Origin: Ischnura elegans
Lineage: Eukaryota; Arthropoda; Insecta; Odonata; Coenagrionidae
Reading direction: 5' to 3'
DNA length: 64,000 nt
NCBI RefSeq assembly: GCF_921293095.1
Contig: NC_060258.1
Location: forward strand, 8,756,607-8,820,606
Shown here: positions 2,713-59,559 of the stretch, in pieces
Numbering within the stretch: position 1 is the first letter of the stretch
How the letters are laid out: each line of letters opens with the position of its first letter
Translations under genes and position numbers: made by a program
The notes under the pieces: generated by a model
Seen by the model: the letters and a program-made list of their open reading frames with translations, nothing else
Databases searched by the model: none
What the model was told of the DNA's origin: nothing

Positions 2713-2767
2713 GCGCTTAGAATGTAAATGTGCAGATAAATACAGAATATGCACATGCAGATAATCC

Positions 2768-3190
2768 TGGGGTCATGCTAGCTGTACCACTAGGCTATTC
2801 AAACTTCAAAAATGGGCCATCAGGATATTGATGGGTGTTAATAAATCTACTAGTTGTAGGCAATTTTTCAAAAAGCTCAATATCTTGACTCTTCCTTGTA
2901 TTTACATTTATTATGCTTCAATATATGTCAAAGAGCAGCACCTCACTTTGGGTTTGGTTTTAAATAACGAACTGCACCTGTACAACACCAGGAGGAGCAA
3001 AGACTTTAGAACTGTGTCACACAATCTTTCATCATATGCAAAAGGTCCTCCCTACGGTGGTTGCAAATTCTTCAACCACCTGCCATTGAATATTAAAGGT
3101 GTTAACTGCCTCCTAGATTTTAAAGTAAAGTTGAAAAGGTATTTGATATCTAATGCCTTTTATTCTGTGAACGAATTTCTTTCAATGTAA
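2768..3190 (+). pseudogene. LINE (CR1/Jockey-like) reverse transcriptase C-terminus
   Basis: An open frame of 141 codons includes LFKLQKWAIRILMGVNKSTS, LNILTLPCIYIYYAS, LHLYNTRRSKDF and FNHLPLNIKG, ending with a stop at 3190. These are the usual C-terminal motifs downstream of the RT thumb in CR1/Jockey-type LINEs. It is followed by a 3' tail ending GTGTCCTGGGATGATTAAAA and (ATT)n to about 3300. It is 5' truncated, as is normal for LINE copies. Confidence 0.8.
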
Positions 3191-19046: not shown

Positions 19047-19814
19047 CAGTGAGTCCTCGTTCTACGTCACCCCGTTTAACATCATTTCGCGATAACGTCA
19101 CGAAAATTTTGAGACCGTCATTCGTTTGTCGCACCTTCGCTTCACGATAACGTCAAGGCTTTTAAATTTCGCGCGAGAAAGAAATGCGAAGCGGCGGGCG
19201 TTGCAGGTTCTTCGCTTTGTCGGCGGTAATGCAGTCAGTCTAAACGAAGTGTAAAACTGAGTGTTTATTGTTAATTGCGATTACGGTTTTAGCAAATTTT
19301 CTGAAAAATGAATTCTTAGGTAGGTGCGCAAGGTTTTACTTGACATAATGGTTTTCAGGAACCTAAAAAGTGATTTCAAGGAATTTTTCCGAGTAGAACT
19401 CGGGAGTTTTTGTCATCACTTTTTTCACCGTGTTCACAATAATTTTGGTTCTTGTAACTGCGACGATGTTTCAGCAATGATGATGCCCAGGCGACGCTCG
19501 CCCAGGCGACCACCATAGCGAAGCCAAAAAGCAAATGCTGGAAGATACAAAAATGGAGAAGGATTAATGTCAGTGCTGCTATTGTCGTCGATGAAGACAG
19601 GAACTCGTATTTATGCAATAGTTTGTTATTCCCACCGTAAAAAAAGCCCCATATATGATACGCTAAAATTTTTTCACGTAGGAATTGTGAGGTCTAGGAG
19701 CCGATATTCACTTTTTACATTGTTTCTTATGGGATATTATGTTTCGATTAACATCATTTCGTTTATCGTCACAGTTTTCAGGAACGGTAAGTGACGTTAA
19801 TCGAGGACTCGCTG
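19047..19814 (+). mobile_element. Tigger-like MITE, CAGTGAGTCCTCGTT family, copy 1
   Basis: The ends CAGTGAGTCCTCGTT and AATCGAGGACTCGCTG are flanked by TA. Both termini carry repeated CGATAACGTCACGAAA / TTTAACGTCA words. Small open frames inside are recurrent across copies but encode nothing recognisable. It ends 75 bp before the last exon of gene 1. Confidence 0.86.
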
Positions 19815-19889
19815 TATATTAATATCATTGCTTTTTGCTCATTACGGCATAACTCTAATGAGTTAATGTTTTTACTTTTTCCTCCGCAG

Positions 19890-20141
19890 AGCCACGGTTT
19901 GAGGTCTCACATGGAGGTGCATCAGAAGGACGAGATGTTCACGTGCGAGCTTTGCAGCAAACAGTACGCTTCCCGCAGGAAATTGGTGAAGCACCTCAAC
20001 TACATGCACGGACCGAAGAGAGAATTCCCGTGCGACGTCTGCAACAAAGTGTTTGCGTGCAAGGAAAACCTGTCGTACCACAGGAGGCGACACTTTGGCC
20101 TTCCGCCTCGCATTCGGAAACCTCGTGTCCCTGTCAAATAA
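19890..20141 (+). CDS. C2H2 zinc-finger gene 1, terminal exon, fingers 5-7 and stop
   Basis: The acceptor is TTTTCCTCCGCAG, in phase 0. SHGLRSHMEVH completes finger 5 with exact C-x2-C-x12-H-x3-H spacing across the intron. Finger 6 is FTCELCSKQY...HLNYMH (His spacing x4) and finger 7 is FPCDVCNKVF...HRRRH. A short basic tail (RIRKPRVPVK) precedes TAA at 20139-20141. Together the four exons encode 323 residues with seven fingers, uninterrupted by stops or frameshifts, so the gene looks intact where visible. The stop codon lies inside AATAAA (20137-20142), so a very short 3' UTR is possible. The acceptor is only about 75 bp downstream of a Tigger-like MITE. Confidence 0.93.
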   Translation, partial: SHGLRSHMEVHQKDEMFTCELCSKQYASRRKLVKHLNYMHGPKREFPCDVCNKVFACKENLSYHRRRHFGLPPRIRKPRVPVK

Positions 20142-22291: not shown

Positions 22292-22664
22292 GCGAAAGAT
22301 CCACAGAGGAAAAATCATTCGCCTTGACCAGGATTCGAACCCGGATCCCCCGATTTCCGGTCGAGTGCTTTATCCAGTTAAGCTACCAAGGCGTCATTCC
22401 TCCCCGTGGATATTTTCGGACACTACGGGACAAGGTGTTGCTGGACTGGCTCCGGCTATGGCACTGTGCGCACGATTTGGACTGCTTGTGGCATCATATG
22501 CTCAGCAGTCCAGCAACATCTTCTCCGGTAGTGTCCGCAAAATATCCACAGGGAAGAATGACGCCTCGGTAGCTTAACTGGCTAAAGCACTCAACCGGAA
22601 ATCGGGGGATCCGGGTTCGAATCCCAGTCAAGGCGAATGATTTTTTTCTCTGTGGATCTTTCGC
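22292..22664. repeat. foldback element with two head-to-head tRNA-like segments, copy 1
   Basis: Arms starting GCGAAAGATCCACAGAG mirror each other through the whole element. Each contains a 72-base tRNA-like sequence (22321-22392 minus, 22563-22634 plus). The spacer is itself inverted (GGACACTAC ... GTAGTGTCC; TGTTGCTGGACTG ... CAGTCCAGCAACA). The upstream GGTGATAACTTTTACGGGAG is shared with copy 2. Confidence 0.85.
22563..22634 (+). tRNA. tRNA-like sequence, half of foldback copy 1
   Basis: Same 72-base tRNA-like unit, slightly diverged (CTCAACCGGAAATCGGGG in the anticodon arm). Boxes A and B are conserved. It is treated as a tRNA-derived repeat, not as a functional tRNA gene. Confidence 0.5.
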
Positions 22665-49116: not shown

Positions 49117-49455
49117 CTACTTATGTTCCTGGCTGATTGATCCCTGAACCATACGTGTAACTAATCTTTTCCCTTGATTGACCTCTCGACTTTTATGAGA
49201 TTCTCTACCTGCGTATACTTGGGCATTCCACTTGTATGAATCACTACTACGACTTGCAGCCAAAATTTTAATTCCATACTTTCCTCGTTTTGATGATACA
49301 AACTCTCTATAGGTACAGCGCCCACGGAACATCAATAACTGTTCGTCAACTGTCATGCAGGATCCTGGCTCGATTGCATATTTCAAATATTCATTCCGCC
49401 CATCAAATATCTCTCTAATAGTCTGCAACTTGTCTTCGCCTCTGCTTTTCCTCAT
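49117..49455 (-). pseudogene. piggyBac-like transposase fragment
   Basis: The 112-codon frame contains MTVDEQLLMFRGRCTYREFV and SKRGKYGIKI, the signature of the piggyBac transposase (DDE_Tnp_1_7) central region, which includes a catalytic Asp in VDE. Upstream and downstream parts are broken by stops. Confidence 0.83.
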
Positions 49456-51562
49456 TTCTGTCGCATTATCAAATCAAATAACCTGCAGTATTACTTTTGA
49501 CTCCATAAACTGTTGCATATTGGTCGCCCGTCTGGTTTACTCCAAAGTTGTGAAAAATTTTCATTTTTGACTAGTAAAAATGATATGTATTAGCAATGCC
49601 AGAACCTTATTTATTTCAGTCATCTTCTTCATTCTACAAAGTTTGAAAAACTATATGCCTTTCAATGTTGGTCCATTTTCTAACAACATCAAAGATGTTA
49701 GGACGCAAAATTAGCAAAAAAGCAGAAGACAGAATAAAAATTCCGCACGGCGCACGGGATATGACGCAAAATATTACGCCTTCGCATTCTACCCTTTTTA
49801 GTGGCATGAGGTTTTGTTTTCCACTCCTCTTTCAGATTGCGTGAAATAAAAATTTCTCCCGATAGGAATTCCCTATTTTCGCATTTCTATCATCTTCTCA
49901 GAAAGATGAAGAAAAATCGGCCAAGGTTCAGTTCTTTTCCATCCTTATTCAACATTTTAGGCTTCATCTCCACCGGAGTGACTACTACCCTCCTCCTGTT
50001 AGCGCTGTATATTTAGATGCTGAACACGTCGTTCTGCAATCTTTAGATGAATGCACTCCAAATGTGTGTCACTATTAGCAAGCCTGAGAATAAAGTGGCA
50101 ATGAAATTTATCAATTTTTCATTCCAAACTTTACTTAGATATAAATGGAAGATAACGTTTTGCGTGCTACTCCTTAGTTGTAAATTCAGGTAAAAATTAG
50201 AAACGCACTGTCTCGTATTATGTTTCTGATGTCATCAAGCAATTCAAAGAGTTCAATAGTTTTGCTAGAACAGCTAATTTTTTCAATAATTATAAACAAT
50301 CCTTTTTTCTTATTACCTAAAAAATTTTTTTGATGGTTATTTCGACTGTAATATCCAAATGGCGACGCCGACTTCTTAGCTCCTCAACTACACAGTCTAT
50401 CAATAGCCACTCTATGAATTCAGTCACATCAATATCTCACTACACAAAATTTGGTACCACCAAGCATCCTGTAAAGATAGGAATAATGACATTGCTGTGT
50501 ATCATAGTAGTTGAAAATCAATACACCACTTCATCTAACTAATCCATCTGAGGAGTAAACGATTTGGTAAATGAGGTAAATACTGAAGAAGTGCATTAGA
50601 TTGAAGGAATATAGTCTTTTATATAATCCCTAAAGTTTTGTACCTACCATGCATGGTATCAAAATGTAATGATGGAATTCAAATTCTTCGAGGTATTCAG
50701 TTAGATAGTTGGAATAACAGCAAATGTCGGCAGGCAGCGAGACCACTCCAGCTTGCACCTCTGACTGTCCACCACATAAGCACCGCAGACGCTATATGAA
50801 CAGTCTCACATATAAAACTAACAGATTATGGGACTGAATGTAGATAATTCACACTGTGTGCGCGTCCAACCAGAGAAAGTTGCAAAAACTACCCATTACG
50901 AAACGATGAGGATACATGTTTCTGACTGTGTCACTCTAAATGTGACATTAGAAGAGTATATGAAAGGCTTCAAGCCAATCCATAAAAAATGCCCACTAAT
51001 TGGTAATAACTATCGCCTACGACTTTGTTTATATCTCCATAAACATTGAATCTCCCAAAAATACTAAGTAAATAAGAAAATTGCTGATAAGTTGAAATGA
51101 ATTACCCATAGCATTGAAAATAGTCGACTGGGTCCAATGGACCCAGTCCGTCCACTATGTAACATTGTAGTATACAATAAAATGTAATGAGCCCATTCTC
51201 GTTATTTCTTGCTATGTTTTAGAGGACATATATTTAGGAAAAGCCACGGCATCAAAATCAGTTTCGTGCATTCTTGACATAATTATAAACTTTCAAAACT
51301 ACCAACTGGGTCCATTGGACCCAGCCCGTCGTTCTAGGGTTAAAAAGAGAAAATTTATTACTCTTAGCAAGAACCTAGGTACATCTGGGAGAGACTACTC
51401 ATATTCAGGCATGGCAATTCCTGAAAGTGGGCAGTGTAAATATTAGGTGCACATTTAAGTAAATAAAAGATCCACAAAATTTTGTGGAAAAGTGCTACGA
51501 TCTTTTATTTATTTAAATGTCTAATTTCCAACAATTGAAGCCTGATTCTGTTGAACTTATTA

Positions 51563-56652: not shown

Positions 56653-56895
56653 GTAAGTTTTCCTTCATGACAATTGGATACAATGCATCAGCATTTAATG
56701 CTATGACCATCCCTTATAATAATAACTTTACTTCGATCCCATTTCTTCCTACAACAATAGTCCTTCTAACATGAGTGGATTTAGGGGGGTGCAGAGGCTC
56801 CTTCCCCCTCTATTTCACTACCATAATCAACTACAGGCGGTCCTCGACTTTTGCACGTTCCAATAGCGATTTTTGAAGACTAATTTAACTGAGCG

Positions 56896-57381
56896 GTGGG
56901 TAAATCTAATCTACTGGGCGACTGGAAAATCCTCCATATTAATAATAATAATACTCCACCATATTACAAATACCATCCACCCTTCTTACTAGAGACAGAT
57001 ACACACATTTTTTACTGGGATAGACCGATACTTACAGATAAAACCATAGATTACAATAGGCCTGATGTTTTATTGATCCACAAATTACAGCGAAGACCAA
57101 ACATAGTCGATGTAGCAGTGCCACTAAATCACAATGTTGAGTCTACGGAAAGAGAGAAAACACAAAAATATCAGAATTTGGCCGGTGAAATAAAAAATAT
57201 TTGGAAGTTGAAAGACTTCAACATACACCCACTGATAATCTCTGCCGAGGGAGTCTTGTCTAAAATATTCAAAAAAGAAGTCGAAGACCTGGGAATTAAA
57301 AAACAACTGATTAACTTCGGGCAAAAAGCTGTTTTACTACAGACCTGCCAGATCGTGAGACGATTCCTGGGTCGGGCATGA
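56896..57381 (+). pseudogene. retroelement C-terminal fragment with PD-...-DVAVP motif
   Basis: A 161-codon frame contains HIFYWDRPILTDKTI, NRPDVLLIHK and IVDVAVPLNHNVES, then REKTQKYQNL. This block recurs in insect non-LTR retroelement C termini. The spacing of PD and DVA resembles a PD-(D/E)xK-type endonuclease. The clade is uncertain. The first residues (LHINNNN) come from an (AAT)n tract, so the true fragment begins near 56955. Confidence 0.6.
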
Positions 57382-57490: not shown

Positions 57491-57719
57491 ATCCACAGAG
57501 AAAAAAAAATCATTCGCCTTGACCGGGATTCGAACTCGAATCCCTCGATTTCCGGCCGAGTGCTTTAGCCAGTTAAGCTACCGAGGCGTCATTCTTCCAC
57601 AGGGAAAATTTCCACAGGGAAGAATGACGCCTCGGTAGCTTAACTGGCTAAAGCACTCGGCCGGAAATCGAGGGATCCGGGTTCGAATCCCGGTCAAGGC
57701 GAATGATTTTTTCTCTGTG
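57491..57719. repeat. foldback element with two head-to-head tRNA-like segments, copy 2
   Basis: Same structure as 22292-22664 with a much shorter spacer (57588-57628). The tRNA-like halves are 57516-57587 (minus) and 57629-57700 (plus). The conserved upstream block (GGTGATAACTTTACGGGAGT) confirms a common family. Confidence 0.86.
57629..57700 (+). tRNA. tRNA-like sequence (SINE/pseudogene type, anticodon position GGA)
   Basis: It folds as a cloverleaf. The acceptor arm GCCTCGG/TCAAGGC has one mismatch, the D stem is GCTT/AAGC, the anticodon stem is CTCGG/TCGAG with loop CCGGAAA, the variable loop is GGAT, and the T stem is a perfect CCGGG/CCCGG with TTCGAAT. Box A (TAGCTTAACTGG) and box B (GGTTCGAATCC) are intact. 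Against a working tRNA-Ser, position 33 is C instead of U, there is no long variable arm, and it exists as an inverted pair. The three other halves are 22321-22392 (-), 22563-22634 (+) and 57516-57587 (-). Confidence 0.55.
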
Positions 57720-58297
57720 AATTCTCTTCCTTAGCATCCGAGCCTAATCCTAAATTGATCTTGGGATAGGTGAATATTTCCAGCTGGTTTTAATCAGCTG
57801 AGAGAGTGCATAAACTCAAATAATAATAATAATTTTAATCATCCCAGGACACTTTAACATGTATAGGACAAGTCTAAGAAATAGAATAAAGAAGAGAATA
57901 AAATGAAACACATTACATTGAAAGAAATTCGTTTACAGAATAAAAGGCATTAGATATCGAATACCTTTTCAACTTTACTTTAAAATCCAGGAGGCAGTTA
58001 ACAACTTTAATATTCGAAGGCAGGTGGTTGAAGAATTTGCAACCAACGTAGGAAGGACCTTTTGCATATAATTAAAGATTGTGTGACACGGTTCTAAAGT
58101 CTTTGCTCCTCCTGGTGCTGTACAGGTGCACGTCGCTATTTAAAACCAAACCCAAAGTAAGGTGCTGCTCTTCGACATATATTGAAACATAATAAATGTA
58201 AATACAAGGAAGAGTCAAGATATTGAGCACAACTAGCAGATTTATTAACACCCATCAATATCCTGATGGCCCATTTTTGAAGTTTGAATAGCCTAGT

Positions 58298-59359
58298 CAC
58301 AGAGTATACAGAGAGGACAGAGGGCGCCCTAAGCTGTGATCGCGAAATGCGCTTCCGGCGATGTTCTAAGCGCGTTAATGATCCCAAGCATCGAGTCTTT
58401 TAGCGCGGTTTGAAGGCGTGAAATCCAGGATCTTATTCGTGTTTCAAAGTGCGAATCGCATACACATTTCATTATTTGGTGAGCACTAAATGCGATGGCG
58501 GATATTGAAAGGCGAGGAATGTTCTGTCTGAATGTCACTTGTTGTTCTGCAATTGATTGCAAGAATAACTCAGGAATGCCCAAAAGCGACCTAAGTTTTT
58601 TTCCGTTTCCCGAAAGATCTCGCAAGGTAAGTTATTTATGATATTAATATTATTTATGTTCCCATAATTGGACAACATCATGAGGTTCGATGCCATTGCT
58701 TATATTTCAGTGCATCATCTAATGCTGCCTTGGAAAAGATTGGTATCGTTGAGATATTAACTAACCTATGCTGAGGGATAAGGAGCAGAGTATTAATTTC
58801 TTGATGTTTTACATTGGATTTCTACATTATAACTGAATTATTGGTTATGGATTTCATCATTAGAAGCCAATGTTAAGTATAGTAGAAAAATGGCAGACTT
58901 GGGAAATACAGGCTCTACTCAACTTCAAGCCTTATTAGTTTCTTTGTAGCATAATTCTGTGTAAAAAATGTGCTTTGCTTCAAGTCTTCTGCTTACATAA
59001 GATTTTAAAGTCTGATAAATACTCGCAAGACGCAAGAAAAGCTATTGACGCGTTTGAACCCCTGCCACTTGTGCGAAGGGAAAGGTGTATTAATAATGGG
59101 GGAATAACTTTCCGCAATCGGGTTCAACTCCGAAGGATAGAAGGGCGTGGGAATAACGATTATAATCGGGAAATAAAGCAAAGACTTACTCACTTTATAA
59201 TCAGGGAATCGGCCGTGGACGTGATGGTTGCGAATCAGTGAATGGTATATTTGAACATGCGCCGTCTTTTGACGTGCTTAGAGCATGGCCGATGCGCGCA
59301 TTCCGCGTTACAAATTTTAAAGGGAGAAAATAGCTTTTGTCCTCTCTGTATACTCTGTG
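58298..59359 (+). mobile_element. P-element-like (THAP-bearing) TIR transposon, internally deleted
   Basis: The element has perfect 22-bp terminal inverted repeats (CACAGAGTATACAGAGAGG... at 58298-58319, complement at 59338-59359) flanked by a perfect 7-bp duplication GCCTAGT (58291-58297 and 59360-59366). It interrupts a minus-strand LINE whose two halves match the intact plus-strand copy at 2768-3190. The interior carries the THAP exon and an anonymous 88-codon frame (58975-59241). Perfect TIRs and TSD indicate recent insertion. Superfamily is inferred from THAP, TIR and TSD; at about 1 kb it cannot encode a full transposase. Confidence 0.75.
58495..58626 (+). CDS. THAP-type zinc-finger exon inside a transposon
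   Basis: ATG at 58495 opens a 44-codon frame ending exactly at a consensus donor AAG|GTAAGT (58627). The peptide begins MADIERRGMF. Cys17 and Cys22 (CSAIDC) form the C-x4-C pair, and LSFFPFPERS matches the conserved 'xSFxxFP' strand of the THAP domain. THAP genes often have an intron just after this point. The remaining ligands (C-x2-H) are not seen downstream, so the domain is truncated or the second exon has been deleted. It lies inside a 1,062-bp TIR element. P-element transposases begin with a THAP domain, so a P-like origin is inferred. Confidence 0.6.
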
Positions 59360-59559
59360 GCCTAGTGGTACAACTAGCATGACCCCAGGCAACCACCCTG
59401 TATTTAAGACTACTAAAAACATATGCATAACAAACAGATAAGGCCACATTGAGGTTGGTGATTGGAAGGATAAACCGCAGCTGGATAATCGGGAGCCTGC
59501 TGTATTTCACTGGCCAGAATTAAGGCGTACACTCAATATTCATGAAGGATATTTAGTGC

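Follow-up and report, generated by a model that had tools for sequence, protein, structure and literature searches.

A THAP-exon-bearing internal-deletion copy of a probable P-superfamily transposon, with full-length relatives, in the genome of Ischnura elegans

Deleted copies that persist beside their master elements are an already known kind of P-superfamily derivative, described from Drosophila, from zebrafish and, as MITEs, from Anopheles. The P element of Drosophila melanogaster is accompanied by deleted non-autonomous copies (PMC7776569), zebrafish carry a full-length THAP9-like gene plus deleted Pdre copies (PMC10983969), and non-autonomous P-MITEs with P ends lie beside their masters in Anopheles gambiae (PMC1562414). 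We find the same arrangement in the odonate Ischnura elegans (RefSeq assembly GCF_921293095.1, contig NC_060258.1), where the window analysed here, a stretch of 64,000 nucleotides taken as a whole, contains a 1,062-bp element (58298-59359) whose ends, target-site duplication, empty site, shared deletion junction and intact full-length copies can be observed directly (Table 1). Judged from its sequence, this element is very probably a cut-and-paste transposon of the P superfamily that lost its autonomy through an internal deletion and was mobilised in trans, its THAP exon travelling as a passenger.

The inverted ends are complementary at every position, and the element is flanked on both sides by a perfect 7-bp duplication, GCCTAGT, as the preliminary description of this DNA had stated. 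A chance origin of the ends was considered and rejected: their 20-base core has no other match in the 64-kb window at up to three mismatches, and no match was obtained in 100 shuffles. Inside the terminal repeats, local alignment of the two subterminal regions revealed a further pair of inverted arms, scoring 29 in the window copy and 47 in the full-length copy L009; none of 300 simple base shuffles gave a subterminal alignment score as high. Copies of the host repeat in the window are about 90% identical to each other, and the second of them carries a single GCCTAGT. With a single GCCTAGT kept between the joined flanks of the element, the host repeat stays open across the join on its minus strand. 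The element is thus a clean transposon insertion. The preliminary description had placed this insertion inside a LINE, of which one part stands: the element does lie within a repeat whose minus strand is open, but no Pfam family was found for that repeat (searched with a 68-aa read across the joined site and a 141-aa frame at 2765-3187). The repeat looks like the end of a LINE reading frame, but the LINE label is unproven.

Table 1 Features of the element and of its insertion site in the window (L009 is a full-length copy elsewhere in the genome)
Feature	Position	Strand	Remark
Left target-site duplication GCCTAGT	58291-58297	.	Present once at the paralogous unoccupied site
Left 22-bp terminal inverted repeat	58298-58319	+	22/22 complementary to right end
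Left subterminal inverted repeat arm	58341-58378	+	Local alignment of both subterminal regions
Frameshifted remnant of transposase exon 1 (THAP, first half)	58495-58626	+	
Donor and remaining start of intron 1	58627-58670	+	
Internal deletion junction	58670-58671	.	L009 611-4033 (3,423 bp) without counterpart
Retained 3' non-coding part of full-length element	58671-59337	+	Match to L009
Right subterminal inverted repeat arm	59269-59307	-	Position by arithmetic
Right 22-bp terminal inverted repeat	59338-59359	-	22/22 complementary to left end
Right target-site duplication GCCTAGT	59360-59366	.	
Paralogous unoccupied site in other host-repeat copy, one GCCTAGT	2789-2795	-	Position by arithmetic

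The window holds several other features. Two head-to-head pairs of tRNA-like sequences (22319-22636 and 57514-57702), called as tRNA-Ser gga (Rfam tRNA) and 168 and 39 bp apart, share a palindromic repeat context and look like a tRNA-derived palindromic repeat; the pair at 57514-57702 lies close to the host repeat of the P element. A 162-aa frame at 56893-57378 (+), which carries a ..TDKTIDYNRPDV.. motif and has a weak, below-cut-off Pfam match to L_protein_N (7.9e-5), is perhaps a nuclease-like repeat protein. At 49120-49473 (-) a fragment, presumably of piggyBac type, matches Pfam DDE_Tnp_1_7 (1.9e-15), and a frame with C2H2 zinc fingers at 19791-20138 (+) is perhaps a host gene exon.

The source genome (1.72 Gb, 110 contigs) was searched at the DNA level, and the 40 candidates scored, out of 73, yielded at least 44 matching stretches. 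We compared 33 loci, including the window's own (L001), two of which (L024 and L033) coincide in place, so that they represent 32 places. Seven full-length or near-full-length copies with both ends (L009-L014 and L020) measure 3.9-4.6 kb (4,481-4,482 bp in L009-L012, 4,596 bp in L013, 4,559 bp in L020 and 3,932 bp in L014), and all seven carry the 22-bp end on both sides with 0-2 mismatches per end. Identity is 99.46-99.96% among L009-L012 (99.89-99.96% for the three closest full-length copies), 99.13-99.29% between L013 and these four, and 95.47-96.80% between L014 or L020 and the other long copies. Six of the seven are flanked by 7-bp duplications and L013 by an 8-bp one. Among the 16 distinct insertions with both ends read, 13 have a perfect 7-bp duplication, two (L002 and L003) have 7 bp with one mismatch, and L013 has its 8 bp.

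With respect to distribution, 7 of the 27 distinct insertions found lie on three contigs of 10-21 Mb (C13, C14 and C17), though these make up about 3% of the genome; the count comes from a lower-bound list, picked post hoc, in which duplicates were collapsed only where checked. These contigs, which hold L005, L007, L027 and L028, share duplicated segments that are 97-99% alike, flanks included. Separately, L029 (C7), L030 (C1) and L031 (C9) represent one short-copy insertion, 99.5-99.9% alike with short flanks, and each lies about 0.6-1.1 Mb from an end of a large contig, a pattern that suggests duplicated contig-end segments.

For the full-length element, a three-exon model (element positions 205-323, 454-716 and 1208-3384 of L009) gives an uninterrupted predicted protein of 852 aa. 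This prediction is intact in four of the seven long copies (L009-L012), with L010, L011 and L012 differing from L009 at 1, 1 and 4 residues, respectively. The model rests on exact splice strings, and the remaining three copies are broken only as far as the model goes: in L013 it stops after 105 codons and the long frame is split into two, and in L014 and L020 its exact splice strings were not found. Pfam analysis of the spliced L009 prediction, the one tested, returned five matches, all above cut-offs: THAP (2e-14), P-type HTH (3e-8), RNaseH_N (4.9e-30), the GTP-binding insertion GBD (8.9e-21) and RNaseH_C (6.7e-10). The THAP residues of the L009 protein are C13, C18, P35, W44, C68, H71, F72 and P91. 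Searched against the PDB, the 728-aa last reading frame of L009 matches the Drosophila P transposase 6p5a (7.2e-38) and no other PDB sequence at E values up to 0.001. On this alignment, counted by hand and with the residue letters checked, D294, D383 and E612 stand opposite D230, D303 and E531 of 6p5a, which PMC7776569 gives as the catalytic residues of the Drosophila enzyme. The preliminary description had called the element P-element-like and THAP-bearing and had envisaged longer copies with the same ends; both expectations are borne out by the seven long copies, four of them intact, and by the full THAP and RNase H-like P-type transposase predicted from L009, and a non-P transposase in the full-length relatives is not what the examined copies show. 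Near-identical and intact as four of them are, the full-length copies were probably active recently.

Aligned to L009, the window copy falls into two parts of 373 and 689 bases that match the first 374 and the last 685 bases of the full-length element, the right part being 93.5% identical to L009 4034-4718 in a match that includes the right end. The interior is gone, the ends are the same, and the proposal that the element is an internal-deletion derivative is thereby supported. The junction reads CATAATTG/GACAAC. In a search that tolerated at most 4 edits over its 23 bases, it recurs with 0-1 changes in 16 of the 32 places, which reduce to 11 distinct insertions, the window's included, when duplicates (L005/L007, L017/L018, L027/L028 and L029-L031) are collapsed; the full-length 5' side of the junction (up to 4 edits) is present in 11 of the 32, and five places (six loci) have neither.

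These data are most simply explained by a single founder deletion that was then amplified, possibly with some exchange among the copies. It is improbable that several independent internal deletions converged on this junction with no single founder: short copies are not united in the 5' tree, which puts L004 among full-length copies (88/95) and leaves the window copy without a resolved position, but the junctions of the 11 distinct insertions agree to within one change over 23 bases, their breakpoints have no microhomology evident by eye, and the 3' tree groups the short copies at 91/92, in a star-like arrangement below the star threshold of 95/80. Because short copies do not form one group in the 5' tree, exchange between copies, or more than one origin, is possible. 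Under the founder account, an older full-length element would have lost its interior at one junction, and with it exons 2 and 3, both intron acceptors and the transposase, while the terminal and subterminal inverted repeats of both sides were kept. Transposase supplied in trans would then have spread the deleted form, and one such copy would have landed in the host repeat, making the 7-bp duplication.

The preliminary description had also reported a 44-codon exon with the first half of a THAP zinc finger, ending exactly at a consensus donor. The 44-codon frame and the GTAAGT that follows it are present, but the frame is shifted, and the Pfam THAP match of the window exon (16.3 bits, E 0.017, profile positions 1-27 of 87) is below the cut-off of 23.9 bits, as is likewise the match of the intact exon 1 alone (21.5 bits). 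In the intact copies exon 1 (119 nt) reads MADYERRGGYTWCSAINCKNNSGMPKSDLSFFRFPKDLA and ends in phase 2, the version in L012 having N at 4 and P at 38. In the window copy it reads LSFFPFPERSRK, ends in phase 0 and is 13 bases longer than in the four intact full-length copies. An additional T in the run at 58596-58602 accounts for one of these 13 bases, and the other 12 lie elsewhere; downstream of that run the window codons have therefore left the ancestral frame, and the donor, in phase 2 in the intact copies, has moved to phase 0. LSFFPFP, which had been read as a THAP motif, was accordingly rejected as partly a frameshift product of the extra T, the intact copies having LSFFRFPKDLA or LSFFRFPKDPA at this place. 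The T run slips repeatedly, for the same frame-shifted FFPFP reading is found in L005, L006, L007 and, among the near-full-length copies, L014; exon 1 of the near-full-length L020 is in another frame.

A derivative of the KP repressor type has to encode the complete THAP domain as well as a dimerisation region. That the short element here makes a THAP-derived peptide competing with the full transposase, in the manner of KP, has even less to recommend it than independent deletions and is highly improbable, although the window copy does have a start codon followed by 44 codons up to a donor, and in L002 and L004 (2 of the 11 short copies) exon 1 can still be read through in the ancestral frame. 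According to PMC7776569, repressors can be encoded by short P elements in Drosophila, KP being a 207-aa protein. Against such a peptide, 4 of the 11 short copies (the window copy, L005, L006 and L007, among which L005 and L007 are duplicates) have a frameshift inside the THAP core, exon 1 of L028 has a stop, and in four more (L003, L008, L025 and L027) the exact start or donor string was missing, so that no exon was read and they were counted as misses. Furthermore, the C-x2-H ligands, together with W, F and the last P of the THAP domain, are encoded in exon 2, which is deleted in short copies.

Exon 1 of the short copies also evolves no more slowly than the rest of the element. Substitution rates against the column majority are 0.0405 in exon 1, 0.0412 in the 5' non-coding part, 0.0330 in the 3' part and 0.0363 over the whole element, where the rates include the duplicate pairs L005/L007 and L027/L028 uncollapsed as well as the half copy L025, and where the majority includes the window copy itself and leaves out L025. 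Indel events per site are 0.0061 in exon 1 versus 0.0031 over the whole element, and differences in exon 1 number 9, 23 and 21 at codon positions 1, 2 and 3, with no excess at the third position over the second. The left-end rate (0.083) is above average, probably through the altered or shifted ends of L005, L007 and L008. Given the frameshift, the deleted C-x2-H and an exon 1 rate no lower than elsewhere, a DNA-binding peptide from short copies appears very unlikely, and we retain neither the suggestion that the element still carries a DNA-binding half-domain nor the one that it competes with the full transposase. As part of a non-autonomous copy mobilised in trans, the THAP exon would be a passenger relic without protein function, and any effect on transposition would arise through DNA ends that take up transposase, that is, by titration.

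Least probable by far, and ruled out by the repeated copies and intact transposase models, is that the exon belongs to a host THAP gene and that its inverted ends arose by chance: THAP domains occur in host genes too, as PMC7776569 notes, but the element recurs elsewhere in the genome, again with these ends and with 7-bp duplications, intact transposase genes are present in full-length copies, and the copies examined do not bear out a host gene of this kind, which the preliminary description had named as a contrary outcome.

Divergence from the short-copy majority amounts to 35 of 1,044 sites (3.35%) for the window copy and to 1.98-4.91% for the ten remaining short copies. At the divergence of the window copy, the chance that all 44 end bases stay unmutated is 22%, so the perfect ends say little about age and the earlier view of a recently mobilised element loses its footing. 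Sequence comparison suggests recent activity of the full-length copies, not of the window copy. As a tentative reading, to which we would give somewhat less than even weight, a currently active autonomous P lineage with short ends and 7-bp duplications may exist beside an older, trans-mobilised deleted subfamily, with insertions of the latter piling up on a few small, duplicate-sharing contigs; in that case, these contigs would possibly be a non-recombining or accessory chromosome.

The case documents a P-type transposon with intact copies in a genome where deleted derivatives persist. The full-length family could offer one more P-type transposase to test and helps annotation; the general picture of P-type transposons is unchanged. 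Assignment to the P superfamily holds on the features that can be read from the DNA, namely a THAP domain, a P-type HTH, an RNase H domain split by a GTP-binding insertion and DDE catalytic residues in the L009 prediction, along with terminal and subterminal inverted repeats and a 7- or 8-bp target-site duplication; a member of this superfamily would also be expected to excise and integrate.

Compared with the P element of Drosophila melanogaster, the domain set of THAP, HTH and split RNase H with GTP-binding insertion, the DDE residues and the presence of terminal and subterminal inverted repeats are the same, whereas the canonical 31-bp ends and length of 2.9 kb contrast with 22 bp and 4.5 kb here, and the 8-bp duplications described in PMC7776569 contrast with 7 bp in 13 of 16 distinct insertions. 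Unlike a derivative of the KP type, the short copy, having lost exons 2 and 3, encodes neither a complete THAP domain nor the dimerisation region. Galileo, a Drosophila member of the P superfamily, is described in PMC4168063 as having 7-bp, occasionally 8-bp, duplications and the same eight THAP residues (C2CH plus P, W, F and P) as the L009 protein, but its ends are long and Foldback-like, whereas those found here are 22 bp long and followed by an imperfect subterminal arm. Zebrafish Pdre2/THAP9 likewise combines short ends with subterminal repeats, although the 13-bp ends and 8-bp duplications given for Pdre2 in PMC10983969 differ from the 22 and 7 bp of our element. Finally, the Anopheles gambiae P-MITEs, as portrayed in PMC1562414, have 8-bp duplications and a central region unrelated to P, whereas the interior of the Ischnura elegans copy is plain P sequence with a clean deletion.
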